From: Dysgonamonadaceae bacterium
GTDB lineage: Bacteria > Bacteroidota > Bacteroidia > Bacteroidales > Dysgonomonadaceae
Assembly: GCA_029975415.1 (NCBI GenBank)
Contig: JARKPE010000135.1
Span: 1 to 35,172, forward strand
Reading direction: 5' to 3'
Length of the DNA: 35,172 nucleotides
Shown one piece after another: positions 11,957 through 17,261 of this stretch (position 1 is the stretch's first letter; every line of letters starts with the position of its first letter). The notes under the pieces were generated by a model. That model worked only from the letters and a program-made list of their open reading frames with translations, ran no database searches and was not told the origin of the DNA. The translations under genes and the position numbers were made by a program.

Positions 11957-13243
11957 TTATTTTGAATTTTGTAATGACGGATGATTGTTCAGCAGAAACG
12001 TCTCTGCTTCTACGCTCCATAAACCGTTATGGCGCTTGCAGATTTCTGCCAGACTTTCGAAAAAAGGATCGGTTTTGCCCAATTCGGCAAAATCGTCGAT
12101 GGCCGTGAGCGGCATTTCGATGTGGGTATAAATCAATTTTTTTCCACCAGGTATTTCAGGCAGGTGATTAGTAGCTTCGGGTACGGCATTCAATCCCCCG
12201 ATATGGGTGACCAAGCCTGCCGGATCCAGACCTAGGCTCATAATGTCCAAAGCCTCCACCATATCGTCGTTGTTTCCACCGCTCGTTCCCACGATGTGTG
12301 TATAGGCGTAATGCACATTATAAAAATTGAACATTGCACTGAAATTGGGATCACTCGGGCCTGCAAAAAAATTGAGACAGCCATCAAATGAAAGAATGGC
12401 ATCGCCCTGTTCAACCACCGACCTTACAGGGGCAAAAATGAATACATCGTTGAATCCGCTTCCCCCGCTGATTGCTCGCAATTCCTCAACCGGATTTTCC
12501 AAAGCAACGGTGTTGACATAACGCAAATCAATGCCACGTGAAGCAGCAAACTCGACGGTATAAATGGAAGCAGCCCTGTCAAGGCGTTCCTGATTGACAT
12601 CGGTAACGACAAGCAACGAAGGCTTGCGATCGTCGCGATGGAGCACATAGTTGATGGCAGCCAATCCCATCGGTCCCACGCCGGCCAAAATAGCCATCTT
12701 CCCGCCATCCATAATCTCCATTTTATGGACATAACTTCCTGGTGTTGTGTGATAATTGGCATGCATTGCTCCTATTACACATGAAAGCGGTTCGGACAAT
12801 GATGCGGGATAAAATCCTTCGCCATGAAAAGCAAGCAGGCAATCTTTCTCCATCACTTCGTTGGGAATGACGACATAAGTGGCATCTCCGCCTATATACT
12901 TATAGCTATAGCCCGGAGCACTCAAAATGCCTACAGGGCCGTTTTCGTAATACAGCGCGGGCTGTATCGAGAATTTGTCGCCCGGCTTGAATTTGTGTGC
13001 CCATTTCGCACCCACTTTCAACAATTCGCCGGCAAACTCATGTCCGATGATCACCGGATTATCGGCAACATCTTTCGGAACACGTTTATGATCGGCTCCC
13101 TGTGAAGAAGCCTTGTAAGACGACATACACAAGGAATCGGAAACTACTTTGGCTAAAATTTCGTCATCCTTGATTTCGGGCAAATCAAATTCTTCGAGAC
13201 GAAGATCTTTTTTACCGTATAATCTAACCGCTTTTGTTTTCAT
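11957..13243 (-). CDS. Zinc-dependent medium-chain dehydrogenase resembling L-sorbose-1-phosphate reductase
   Basis: MDR-family oxidoreductase of 428 residues. Catalytic zinc ligands are Cys39 (DSLCMSSYK), His68-Glu69 (GHEFAGE) and Glu151 (LSEPLSC). AGVGPMGL at 187-194 is the nucleotide-binding loop. The structural-zinc cysteine cluster of classical alcohol dehydrogenases is missing. The N-terminal VRLYGKKDLRLEEFDLPEI with SLCMSSYKA resembles the L-sorbose-1-phosphate reductase (SorE) branch as I remember it. I chose ATG at 13243; a TTG start at 13264 would translate part of the flanking repeat array. Pairing with the tandem aldolase suggests reduction or oxidation of a ketose-phosphate or of an aldolase product such as lactaldehyde. 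The substrate is inference. Confidence 0.8.
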   Translation of the reverse strand: MKTKAVRLYGKKDLRLEEFDLPEIKDDEILAKVVSDSLCMSSYKASSQGADHKRVPKDVADNPVIIGHEFAGELLKVGAKWAHKFKPGDKFSIQPALYYENGPVGILSAPGYSYKYIGGDATYVVIPNEVMEKDCLLAFHGEGFYPASLSEPLSCVIGAMHANYHTTPGSYVHKMEIMDGGKMAILAGVGPMGLAAINYVLHRDDRKPSLLVVTDVNQERLDRAASIYTVEFAASRGIDLRYVNTVALENPVEELRAISGGSGFNDVFIFAPVRSVVEQGDAILSFDGCLNFFAGPSDPNFSAMFNFYNVHYAYTHIVGTSGGNNDDMVEALDIMSLGLDPAGLVTHIGGLNAVPEATNHLPEIPGGKKLIYTHIEMPLTAIDDFAELGKTDPFFESLAEICKRHNGLWSVEAETFLLNNHPSLQNSK

Positions 13244-13250
13244 TTTTTCA

Positions 13251-13285
13251 GAACCAGGAACCAAGAGTCAAGAGTCAAGACATTA
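13251..13285. repeat. Heptad array GANNCAA, left flank of the four-helix-bundle gene
   Basis: Five consecutive 7-base units (GAACCAG, GAACCAA, GAGTCAA, GAGTCAA, GACATTA) sit directly before the dehydrogenase start and form its leader. The reverse complement reads TCTTGAC-type heptads, the same consensus as the array at 13711-13781 but in opposite orientation. Bases 13258-13280 match the inverse of 13728-13750 at 21 of 23 positions. Confidence 0.85.
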
Positions 13286-13321
13286 GCCAAACTTCTTTTC
13301 TTTAGATTCCTGGATTTTTAT

Positions 13322-13672
13322 TTAATTTAATTTTTCCTTGAAACCGATAATCATTTTTTGAAGTTCACTCAATTTTTCTTCTAAATAATTATATTTATCA
13401 TTATCGATATATGAGAGATTTAGAGATACAATTAATTCCGTTTCCAATTCGAAAGAAGAACCAAGCGACATTTCGAGAAATCTAACAAAATCTTTAGCAC
13501 TTGATTTTGCCGAACCTTCCGCAATATTCGTAGGAATAGAAACTGCAGCTCTTTGCATTTGCGAAACTAAACCAAACCGTTCAGCTTGAGGAAACGTATT
13601 AACAATCTTGTAAATATCTGAAACAAAAGCAACCGACTTATTCCAAATATCCAATTTCTTAAAATTATGCAT
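13322..13672 (-). CDS. Four-helix-bundle protein (S23/IVP, TIGR02436-like)
   Basis: Small 116-residue all-helical protein of the family first seen as ORFs in 23S rRNA intervening sequences and related to the Avd accessory protein of diversity-generating retroelements. The family pattern is clear: FKKLDIWNKSV at 4-14, FPQAERFGLVSQMQRAAVS, IPTNIAEGSAK, then FVRFLEMSLGSSFELETEL. Its molecular role is unknown. It is a lone gene inserted among metabolic genes in the same direction, and both flanks carry inverted TCTTGAN heptad arrays that reach almost to the neighbouring coding regions. It is unlikely to take part in rhamnose use. Confidence 0.9.
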   Translation of the reverse strand: MHNFKKLDIWNKSVAFVSDIYKIVNTFPQAERFGLVSQMQRAAVSIPTNIAEGSAKSSAKDFVRFLEMSLGSSFELETELIVSLNLSYIDNDKYNYLEEKLSELQKMIIGFKEKLN

Positions 13673-13710
13673 TTCAATCTTCTCTTAAATCTTTTATATT
13701 AAATCCTGCT

Positions 13711-13781
13711 TCTTGGCTCGTCTTGGTTCTTGACTCTTGAATCTTGGCTCTTGAATCTTGAATCTTGATTCTTGATTCTTA
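13711..13781. repeat. Heptad array TCTTGAN, right flank of the four-helix-bundle gene
   Basis: Nine TCTTGRN units (GGC, partial TCG, GGT, GAC, GAA, GGC, GAA, GAA, GAT, GAT endings) run from 13711 to 13776 and end in a TCTTA remnant. The array finishes 2 bases from the stop codon of the aldolase/dehydrogenase gene. One slip of 3 bases occurs after the first unit. Orientation is opposite to the array at 13251-13285. Confidence 0.9.
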
Positions 13782-13783
13782 TA

Positions 13784-15745
13784 TCATGCCAACATCACCT
13801 GCCCACCCGTAATTGGAAGAGCCTGTCCGGTTTCTCCACATTGCTCCATCAAATACAACACGCCTTTGGTAACATCGTCAGGAGTGCATCCTTTTTTCAT
13901 AGGAACTTGAGAGAGATAATATTCTCGAACATCTTCCACCGTTTTTGCACCCGGAACTTTACCGGTCTTGAGATATTGCAGAAACAAGCCATTTTCAGGG
14001 TCACTCCAAAGCGGACCTTCGTAAAAATTGCCCGGGCAAATACTATTGACCTTAATACGGTAAGGCGCCAACTCAAGAGCAAACGACTGGGTAAGGCCGA
14101 TTCCGCCAAATTTACCACCTGCATAAGCAAAATTGGCTTTGCTGCCTCTCAATCCCGATTTGGAATTGATCTGAATAATGTCGGCATAATAATCTTTTGG
14201 GGCGAACCGAGTTTGCAATTTTAAGGTTCGGCTCACGACCTTTACGCCATAAAAATATCCGTAATAATTGATTCGAGTAACAAAATCGAACGTTTCGGGT
14301 GTCATTTCGTCCAATCCGCCGGCTCTAAGGACGCCAGCATTGCTTATGTAACAGTCGATGGCACCGAAATTGCAAACCGCATCGTGAACCAAACTTTCGA
14401 GACTTGCAATATTCGTTACATCCGTTTTCACGAAAACAACCCGATTGCCCCCGCAAAGCGTATTTAATTCGCCGGCCGTCTTTCGACCTGTCTCTTCATT
14501 CAAATCGGCTACCACAATATTGGCGCCTTCTTTTACCAGACAGCGCGCGATGCCTTCGCCGAAACCTTGTGCAGCACCGGTAATCACGATGGTTTTGTTT
14601 TCGGCACGACCATTCGATTTTGTCGTTGACACACTTCTCCGATAATTTTCGACTTCCCAATGATCGATGAAATCGATTTGATTTTGCGTCATTGGATGTT
14701 CTCCACCAAACGATTGCGCCAGATAAGCCACTTTCATGGCATCTTCGAATACATCGAGAATGGTTTCGCACTGCTTGGCATTGGGGCCGGCAGCAACAAG
14801 TCCGATTCCCTTCATCAGCAAAACATGAGGATGATATCCCTGTTTTTCGATAAAAACAGGAATTTGCGTTTCGGCTTCGTGAAGCAAAGTTTCTTCCGAA
14901 TTGCCGTCAAAGAACAGATAATTCGATTTGCAATATACAATTTCGTCGGGAGTGAAAGGTTTCGCAATCAGTTGTCGGTTTTCGACATTCTCCGAGAAAA
15001 ACGCTATTATCGGATTATTGCGGACTTTCAGTGTTTTCAGTCCATTGGTTGAAAGCATCATTCTGACCGCAGGAATCACCTTTTCTGCATCCTGGCTTGA
15101 GAGGGTTTCGTCCGAAGGAAGGTTTTTTTGTAACGATTTTTCGAGCGTACCGAAAATATCGGAATAAATATTCTTGATTTCTTCGATGGTATCTGCAGCT
15201 ACAAATATTCCGTGATTTTGCAACCAGATAACATGTGGCTCTTCGCCATAGGCAGCGCGAAACGCTTTTATTTTTTCTTCTACTTTTTTAAATAACACAT
15301 AACCCGGATCGGTATATTCCACAAAAAGTGCTTTTTCACCGAAAAGTTTTTTTAGCATGGATTCGGCTTGTTGCGAACACATCAGTGCATTCACGAGCGT
15401 AGGATGCAAATGCACGACAAAAGCATATTCGATGATGTTGTGCATTGAAGTTTCCACCGACGGGCGTTTATCCCTGGTAAGCGTGGCGGCTGCCAGGTCG
15501 TTTTTAACCTCTTCTTCGCGCAAAGCGACATCGTCGCTGTATTTTTTTTCGGACATCGGACGAAGTTTTGTCCTGTCTAGCAGGGCAAATCCATCTTCGG
15601 TGATGGTCGCCAGCGACACTCCACTGGCCTTTACCCAAATTCTATCCGCATTTTTATACGAAGTATTTCCTCCTCCCGCAATCACATACCGACTGTCTCG
15701 GCCATAAAATTGCGATATTTCTATCAATTGCTCTATCTCTTTCAT
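13784..15745 (-). CDS. Bifunctional class II aldolase/short-chain dehydrogenase, RhaEW-type (rhamnulose-1-phosphate aldolase / L-lactaldehyde dehydrogenase)
   Basis: Fusion of 653 residues. The aldolase part has AGGGNTSYK, Glu98, His112 and His114 in VVHLHP, and His178 in WLQNHGIF. A second aldolase-like segment at about 245-345 (KGIGLVAAGPNAKQC) lacks the histidines. After a linker near 370-383 comes a Rossmann SDR: TGAAQGFG at 389-396, SNAG, Ser528, and Tyr541/Lys545 in YAGGK. Such fusions (B. subtilis YuxG, RhaEW) split L-rhamnulose-1-phosphate into DHAP and L-lactaldehyde and oxidise the latter to L-lactate. This supplies the aldolase missing from the rhaBAT block. I chose ATG at 15745; the longer TTG start at 15772 adds nine unlikely residues. 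Confidence 0.87.
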   Translation of the reverse strand: MKEIEQLIEISQFYGRDSRYVIAGGGNTSYKNADRIWVKASGVSLATITEDGFALLDRTKLRPMSEKKYSDDVALREEEVKNDLAAATLTRDKRPSVETSMHNIIEYAFVVHLHPTLVNALMCSQQAESMLKKLFGEKALFVEYTDPGYVLFKKVEEKIKAFRAAYGEEPHVIWLQNHGIFVAADTIEEIKNIYSDIFGTLEKSLQKNLPSDETLSSQDAEKVIPAVRMMLSTNGLKTLKVRNNPIIAFFSENVENRQLIAKPFTPDEIVYCKSNYLFFDGNSEETLLHEAETQIPVFIEKQGYHPHVLLMKGIGLVAAGPNAKQCETILDVFEDAMKVAYLAQSFGGEHPMTQNQIDFIDHWEVENYRRSVSTTKSNGRAENKTIVITGAAQGFGEGIARCLVKEGANIVVADLNEETGRKTAGELNTLCGGNRVVFVKTDVTNIASLESLVHDAVCNFGAIDCYISNAGVLRAGGLDEMTPETFDFVTRINYYGYFYGVKVVSRTLKLQTRFAPKDYYADIIQINSKSGLRGSKANFAYAGGKFGGIGLTQSFALELAPYRIKVNSICPGNFYEGPLWSDPENGLFLQYLKTGKVPGAKTVEDVREYYLSQVPMKKGCTPDDVTKGVLYLMEQCGETGQALPITGGQVMLA

Positions 15746-15800
15746 TTTTGTTTTTTGCTCCCTATGAGCCAATTTTCTCTATATTCTTTTGTCTTTTTTT

Positions 15801-17211: not shown

Positions 17212-17261
17212 CTCATCATTTTTGTTGATTCGTTGATTTGTTGATTTGTTGATGTGATGAG
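17212..17261. repeat. TTTGTTGA octad array bounded by a 7-bp inverted repeat
   Basis: Four 8-base units (TTTGTTGA, TTCGTTGA, TTTGTTGA, TTTGTTGA) and a degenerate fifth (TGTGATGA) run from 17221 to 17260. CTCATCA at 17212-17218 and TGATGAG at 17255-17261 are perfect inverted copies that bound the array, so it could fold into a hairpin with the octads in its loop. It lies in the leader of the PHP gene. Confidence 0.8.

Follow-up and report, generated by a model that had tools for sequence, protein, structure and literature searches.

A four-helix-bundle gene framed by mirrored heptad arrays at an operon junction of a Dysgonamonadaceae bacterium, and its counterparts in Bacteroidota and other phyla

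In the genome of a Dysgonamonadaceae bacterium (assembly GCA_029975415.1), a small gene of the S23, or four-helix-bundle, family lies between two metabolic genes and carries an array of 7-nt repeats on each side, which raises the question of what kind of unit the gene and the arrays form and how an operon comes to hold it. The locus lies in a stretch of 35,172 nt (contig JARKPE010000135.1, positions 1 to 35,172; hereafter the window), and all of its parts are read from the minus strand. The whole block, termed the cassette here, covers 540 nt (13244..13783), from the stop codon of one metabolic gene to the start codon of the next. In order of transcription, it comprises an upstream arm (13721..13780), a heptad array that reads CAAGANN on the transcribed strand and TCTTGNN on the plus strand; the S23 gene (13322..13672), encoding 116 aa; and a downstream arm (13250..13280), the inverse array, which reads TCTTGNN on the transcribed strand and CAAGANN on the plus strand. 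The protein belongs to PF05635 (E 7.5e-38, 129.4 bits, curated cut-off 33.8), matches TIGR02436, 'four helix bundle protein' (E 1e-35, 122.3 bits, cut-off 24), and has 2gsc and 2rld as its nearest solved chains.

An S23-type gene between oppositely oriented arrays of one 7-base consensus is what the sequence-only reading had described, and the sequence itself, Tandem Repeats Finder and the profile matches confirm it. Specifically, the upstream array has 7.6 copies of period 7 in 13728-13780 and a period of 21 over 13721-13780, and the downstream array, which as a whole covers about 13250-13280, has 2.7 copies in 13262-13280. Segments 13258-13280 and 13728-13750, put forward as inverse copies, agree on recount at exactly 21 of 23 positions, and the match extends to 31 nt at 84% identity (13250-13280 with 13728-13758). 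The two flanks of the S23 gene score 21 in inverse alignment and 10 in direct orientation, and the inverse score lies above all of 3000 dinucleotide-preserving shuffles (mean 9.6, maximum 18). RNA folding predicts that the two arms pair with each other and so enclose the whole cassette, at a minimum free energy of -135 kcal/mol compared with a mean of -112 (standard deviation 5.0) for 100 shuffles (z -4.6).

This build suggests an intervening-sequence-like cassette in a protein operon, in which two arrays of a single 7-nt word could pair as the stem of a long hairpin and leave the S23 gene in its loop, a reading that we regard as evenly balanced between right and wrong. Intervening sequences of rRNA genes also occur in forms without an open reading frame (ORF). 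Like these intervening sequences, the cassettes have an S23 ORF that is flanked by complementary arms and lies within a transcribed host unit, as is the case in the window, and they show a patchy occurrence at fixed places in ORF-bearing and ORF-less forms. They differ in that the window cassette lies between two protein genes and not in an rRNA gene, in that the arms consist of heptads whose word is particular to each junction, and in that excision is putative. In the precedent, intervening sequences of 23S rRNA that contain an S23 ORF are excised by RNase III, and in Coxiella the excision from the transcript proceeds without ligation; the function of PF05635 genes is described as unknown (PMC4990558).

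The layout is general. S23 matches are present in 68 of the 101 genomes of the family (66 over the cut-off) and in 298 of 395 sampled Bacteroidota genomes (279 over the cut-off), often several per genome. We assembled 162 Bacteroidota loci, 3 from the source genome (G000), 29 and 30 supplied by the searches and 100 fetched; 161 have an S23 ORF, and 159 were scored after leaving out L152, in which no S23 ORF was called, and two rows with short flanks. The inverted-flank score is at least 16 in 101 of the 159 (median 18), and the direct score reaches 16 in 15. The same inverted threshold is reached by 3.2% of cross-paired flanks, by 0 of 40 control genes of the same loci, and by 0 of 26 genes of RidA, a control family of similar size (30 loci, less 4 without a called ORF). 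Furthermore, the S23 gene is co-oriented with both neighbours in 137 of the 154 loci that have both called, as opposed to 6 of 26 for RidA. Similarity of the neighbours sorts the S23 loci into 89 junction groups, an upper bound, as a poor neighbour call can split a group (L115 is an example). With one random locus per group, 61% score at least 16 (15% in direct orientation) and 79% are co-oriented with both neighbours. Among the operon junctions occupied are sdhA-sdhB, nuoC-nuoD, mraY-murD and hutI-fchA.

A second set, partly overlapping the first, comprised 80 named S23 loci, the best of 501 relatives, of which 75 were used (5 lacked an ORF). Its 54 Bacteroidota loci behave alike (48/51 co-oriented with both neighbours, 35/53 scoring at least 16). 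The other 21 of the 75 are from Planctomycetota, Verrucomicrobiota, Cyanobacteria, Chloroflexota, Desulfobacterota, Fibrobacterota, Melioribacter and one unplaced organism; 18 of 20 are co-oriented with both neighbours and 14 of 21 score at least 16 (16/18 and 14/19 without the two Melioribacter loci), often with NGTTAGC words. The layout is thus real and characteristic of S23 genes in comparison with two kinds of control gene, recurs at up to 89 Bacteroidota junctions, and is present in other phyla; with a different spacing, it is also characteristic of a second gene family, GxxExxY (see below).

The arms follow a common plan in differing words. A short-period repeat above the 1% shuffle level is found in 156 of 318 S23 flanks, where about 3 are expected, and the best period of these 156 arms is 7 in 96, 14 in 29 and 8 in 23 (7 or 14 together, 125). 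Over 80 loci, the arms have a median length of 35; they begin right at the stop codon (median distance 0) and end 7 nt short of the following start codon. The word is tied to the junction, being GTTACGA-like in one sdhA-sdhB group and CAAGANN at the window junction; in another sdhA-sdhB group the arms match weakly (scores 9-11). The source genome (2.03 Mb, 84% complete) holds three S23 genes, the other two at the hutI-fchA and mraY-murD junctions, again between mirrored arrays, in AAGTGAA-like and AATTGAT-like words; in the first scoring the three loci had inverted scores of 24, 19 and 21 against direct scores of 13, 14 and 12. At the mraY-murD junction of two genomes of the window's genus (L003 and L040), the S23 proteins are visibly unlike and the arrays differ too, which would fit either replacement or independent arrival. 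In eight loci (L045, L066, L136, L138, L148, L150, L154 and L172), a TTTGTAAG...CTTAC-like leader recurs between the upstream arm and the S23 start; seven of them, all except L066, were among 16 S23 loci scanned against Rfam, and no family matched in any of the 16, the leader included.

The S23 genes appear, from sequence comparison, mostly to stay in place. In junction groups with more than one locus, 85 of 92 S23 genes have their best relative at their own junction. Where the 4-fold sites of the neighbouring genes are saturated (199 pairs), S23 protein identity is 0.68 and S23 4-fold identity 0.41, also saturated; saturated 4-fold sites beside this level of protein identity point to old residence under selection.

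The window junction provides a direct view of occupancy. It is bounded upstream by a bifunctional aldolase/short-chain dehydrogenase-like gene (13784..15772, PF00596 and PF00106, best NCBIfam models below their cut-offs) with its TGA stop at 13786-13784, and downstream by a zinc-dependent alcohol dehydrogenase-like gene (11957..13243, PF08240 and PF00107) with its ATG at 13243-13241. The block fills the gap between them, as had been proposed, with spacers that we correct from 2 and 7 nt to 3 nt on the stop side and 6 nt on the start side. Relatives with a near-empty aldolase/dehydrogenase junction, close to the empty junctions that the sequence-only reading had proposed to look for, are common. 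In 47 cases from 46 genomes with both flanking genes in view, the gap holds S23 in 9, is 40 nt or shorter in 22, and has other content in 16. The 22 near-empty junctions have spacers of 10-40 nt, 10 nt being the shortest among relatives without the cassette, and 21 of them lack any CAAGA/TCTTG word. The 9 occupied cases include the window itself, L190 and L221, where S23 lies only partly in the delimited gap, and L223, with a gap of 1535 nt. Proteiniphilum acetatigenes DSM 18083 is among the organisms that carry the cassette at this junction (L267). In this sample, 10 of 59 dehydrogenase matches were not fetched, L175 was replaced by L223 (the same place), and 2 of 49 loci without the aldolase in view were dropped. 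One 138-nt gap (L188), with an upstream array and the start of an S23 gene, reads as a decayed cassette, and a 27-nt gap (L194) may be a shorter remnant. On the aldolase tree (44 rows; 3 further junction loci with short sequences omitted), the S23 state changes at least 6 times, and 5 of these changes are forced by well-supported branches. Two further occupants of this junction, L180 and L187 (in G039 and G044), are other inserts of about 100-112 nt with CCCCTAAATCCCC/AAAGGGG-like inverted stretches. In a same-genus genome (G092:C36, L115 and L223), about 1 kb of DNA containing a different ORF interrupts the S23 cassette of the junction; that ORF has the look of a transposase.

Some genes nevertheless seem to have reached new junctions. 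Among 38 S23 pairs at least 68% identical but in different groups, 25 have no similar neighbour on either side and mostly sit in unlike words, suggesting that the gene can reach a new junction and that the word is not carried along unchanged. Recent homing into the window junction may be hinted at by 4-fold sites: in a few same-junction pairs the S23 gene looks younger than its neighbours (L034/L035, 4-fold identity 0.72 for S23 against 0.38 for the neighbours), but identity profiles rise only mildly over the gene with no sharp unit boundary, and S23 codon bias could account for the difference. The younger-looking pairs, together with the patchy occupancy and the six or more changes on the aldolase tree, are what would be explained by a non-autonomous unit of transposon type, mobilised through its arrays by a recombinase. 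However, the ends differ between copies within one genome, the three cassettes of the source genome having three words and no terminal inverted repeats in common of the kind that define a transposon or miniature inverted-repeat transposable element; S23 keeps its junction in the 85 of 92 cases given above; and the profiles lack the unit boundary. We judge such a unit very unlikely. No target duplication was noticed in the junction sequences inspected, which were not tested systematically. The proposal of a unit that is mobile or copied in by an outside recombinase finds no direct support, and of the proposed cassette of array, gene and array, what stands is that it behaves like one unit, with near-empty junctions and a recurrent layout.

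At a given junction, the arms match better within a locus than across species (19.7 against 14.7; 65 of 92 rows, which are not independent, p 1.5e-8). This covariation, the fold of the window cassette, the co-orientation with the operon and the rRNA precedent (PMC4990558) are all compatible with a regulatory or processing hairpin under RNA selection, in which complementarity would be kept because the paired arms of the operon mRNA are cut by RNase III or a similar enzyme. Opposed to this, mismatches between the arms that would read as G.U in RNA are not in excess over A.C (141 versus 164 in 99 loci, p 0.21), and the Rfam scan returned no family. We think selection of this kind quite improbable. 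Of the earlier suggestion that the arrays could pair in mRNA and loop out the gene, the pairing itself holds as a possibility; selection for it does not find support. With no excess of G.U, RNA pairing is not visibly what is selected, and we infer that one arm is copied into the other at the DNA level. A sense-strand C-to-T bias could also shift the ratio of G.U to A.C, so the test is not a clean one.

Taken as an intervening-sequence-like cassette, the unit may be maintained as follows. The arms would be kept alike by DNA-level copying of one into the other, more than by selection on RNA pairing, through slippage within the arrays and template switching between the inverted arms. The S23 gene would mostly be inherited in place, with selection on its protein; occasional loss would leave remnants or solo arrays, and rare settling at a new junction would place the gene between arms in another word. 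In the transcript, the arms may fold, and a double-strand-specific RNase may cut out or isolate the S23 segment, by analogy with the S23-bearing intervening sequences of 23S rRNA, which would let the host operon tolerate the cassette.

Several observations weigh against this reading. The S23 loci are the best-scoring matches in the family and phylum plus part of the further listed ones, rather than a random sample, and include many orthologues; 58 of the 159, about a third, lack a clear inverted pair at threshold 16. The G.U result speaks against upkeep at the RNA level, and thereby against an excision step like that of the rRNA intervening sequences as the force that keeps the arms alike. Arrays are also found in 31 of 128 other co-oriented gaps of the S23 loci, and when we sampled TCTTGNN arrays, taking the first listed in each of 30 genomes, 29 of the 30 had no adjoining S23 gene and 28 no strict inverted partner.

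An alternative is that heptad arrays are an independent host repeat class and that S23 merely settles in or beside them, both being tolerated in the same operon gaps. Cyanobacterial short tandemly repeated repetitive (STRR) sequences are heptamer arrays. The tandem 7-nt units in intergenic DNA that mark STRR and other heptamer arrays are present in the window cassette, and the likeness includes 7-nt direct repeats in gaps between genes, often directly before start codons; the difference is that here the arrays form mirrored pairs around an S23 gene, in many words. In naming STRR heptamers and rRNA intervening sequences as parallels, the sequence-only reading was apt. Arrays of the heptamer TAACTGA are described from Beggiatoaceae, 15 Cyanobacteria and 5 Bacteroidetes, and lie mostly directly before start codons in one Beggiatoaceae genome (PMC4679880). 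That paper suspects transfer of the arrays, by no known mechanism, and a search of its text gave no mention of S23 (PMC4679880). Many arrays stand alone or form short mirrored pairs that enclose no S23 gene; such pairs, seen at several S23-less junctions (L085 3306-3447 and L086 419-520, for example), are an ORF-less counterpart of the cassette. The presence of related S23 genes at unrelated junctions in unlike words also suits an independent repeat class. Against it, arrays frame S23 beyond background, occurring in 57/154 and 67/141 S23-side gaps as compared with the 31/128 other co-oriented gaps and with 11/230 unselected gaps; the frame is mirror-symmetric and locus-specific; and GxxExxY genes have arrays of a different spacing. 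We consider an independent repeat class unlikely. Divergent and convergent gaps of the S23 loci hold arrays in 2/15 and 0/19 cases. In one genome (L444, G044:C17), two successive junctions share one word, one holding S23 and the other a solo mirrored pair.

TCTTGNN itself is not a mark of S23. TCTTGNN arrays are present in 37 of the 101 family genomes, with up to 77 hits per genome (the reversed control pattern is not neutral everywhere, giving 108 hits in G064); in the source genome, allowing at most one mismatch, they are confined to the window locus and one solo 3-unit array. The proposal to ask how often such arrays flank S23 genes therefore has the answer that in relatives they are scattered, 29 of 30 sampled having no S23 beside them, which goes half of the way to refuting the association as first put. 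TCTTGAN as a signature of S23 cassettes was accordingly rejected: the source genome has the one solo site besides the window, other S23 genes have other words, and the copies in relatives are mostly without S23. A polarity rule for solo arrays, with CAAGA nearer the stop and TCTTG nearer the start (12/17 and 11/15, p 0.03), was weak and was likewise not adopted; its count set aside 10 arrays in non-co-oriented gaps, 6 at edges and 2 beside S23.

Not the word, then, but the spacing of the arrays goes with the gene that they enclose, as GxxExxY genes (PF13366, PDDEXK_3) reveal. These were found in 75 of 148 phylum genomes. The source genome has four PF13366 matches, one with an internal stop (C28:1371-1721, C4:102-446 and C138:11646-11972 are among the positions); the layout counts rest on fetched loci, 30 in number (L374-L403), of which 4 without a called ORF were dropped. 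Like S23 cassettes, GxxExxY cassettes place a small gene, flanked by inverted arrays, where two operon genes meet: 20 of the 26 usable loci are co-oriented with both neighbours and 19 reach an inverted score of 16, 8 also reaching 16 in direct orientation. They differ in that the protein is unrelated and the spacing is 9-12 nt instead of 7. In particular, a period-7 array is found in 0 of the 26; the best arm lag is 7 in 85 and 8 in 26 of 117 S23 loci, whereas in 22 GxxExxY loci it is 9 in 8, 12 in 5, 11 in 4, 10 in 3 and 8 in 2. Excess identity is 0.22, 0.20 and 0.14 at lags 7, 14 and 21 for S23 and at most 0.06 (lag 9) for GxxExxY. Array spacing thus follows the cargo family, loosely so for GxxExxY, which is the strongest hint of an involvement of the protein with its array.

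It is possible, though on the unlikely side, that the arrays are recognised, built or spread by the S23 protein (and those of the other kind by the GxxExxY protein), cargo and repeats forming a single system in which spacing matters (7 nt; 9-12 nt) and the word does not. Recognition by the helical protein was also among the proposals of the sequence-only reading. Consistent with this, besides the spacing, period-7 arrays occur in 11 of 230 gaps (10/118 and 1/112) of two S23-bearing genomes and in 0 of 262 (0/129 and 0/133) of two S23-less genomes, with 200 kb surveyed in each, although this comparison covers four genomes only and counts are without phylogenetic correction. The surveyed stretches of the two S23-bearing genomes have 14 listed arrays of period 7 or 8, 2 of them next to S23 and one a plain CT run. 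In genus g10, TCTTGNN arrays are present in 16 of 21 S23-bearing and 5 of 18 S23-less genomes (p 0.004, uncorrected for kinship). On the other side, G080 (91% complete) has 32 TCTTGNN hits and no S23 match, so that arrays can stand without a detectable S23 gene; G165 has at least 11 S23 genes, yet a single array in 112 gaps; the lag peaks of GxxExxY are low; and across junctions S23 identity correlates weakly with arm likeness (rho 0.22, 3400 pairs). In 75 S23 pairs more than 60% identical, the arms are more alike (13.8 against 7.6), a contrast weakened because a poor neighbour call has in places divided a single junction into nominally 'different' ones, as with L115. Recognition by each S23 protein of a word of its own was rejected on this weak correlation and on the 25 pairs without a similar neighbour, which are mostly in unlike words.

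Avd of the diversity-generating retroelements belongs to a related fold family, but the window protein has only a weak bAvd match (E 1.4e-4, under the cut-off) and scores far better as PF05635; no reverse transcriptase was found by Pfam among six neighbouring proteins, three on each side, the rest of the genome not having been searched. Four-helix-bundle genes have been noted at single places, namely between the guanylate kinase and nicotinate-nucleotide adenylyltransferase genes of Flavobacterium columnare, listed under phage elements (PMC5524665), and as genes unique to one Arthrospira strain, two of them with closest hits in Chloroflexi (PMC8700078). Among open-licence full texts, we found none that connects S23 or GxxExxY genes with mirrored arrays. 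As far as searched, then, the mirrored-array S23 cassette is undescribed as a whole, and it is close in build to the rRNA intervening sequences; its mechanism and function, as set out above, are what the layout would suggest. Elsewhere in the window, 17221-17253 holds a tandem 8-bp repeat, TTTGTTGA, in 4.1 copies.

PF05635 genes are common, and heptamer arrays have so far been reported without an agent. For the TAACTGA arrays, one suggestion is that the mobile element may be a protein that binds the repeats, with a call to examine the neighbourhood of its gene (PMC4679880). If the cargo proteins are the agents of the arrays, the cassettes would form a mobile or semi-mobile class whose defining feature is the spacing of the ends rather than their sequence, and the heptamer arrays known from cyanobacteria, Beggiatoaceae and Bacteroidota would have their missing agent. 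The layout reported here ties S23 to mirrored heptad arrays in several phyla, and a second family to arrays with a spacing of their own, and thereby makes the idea of a repeat-binding protein directly testable.
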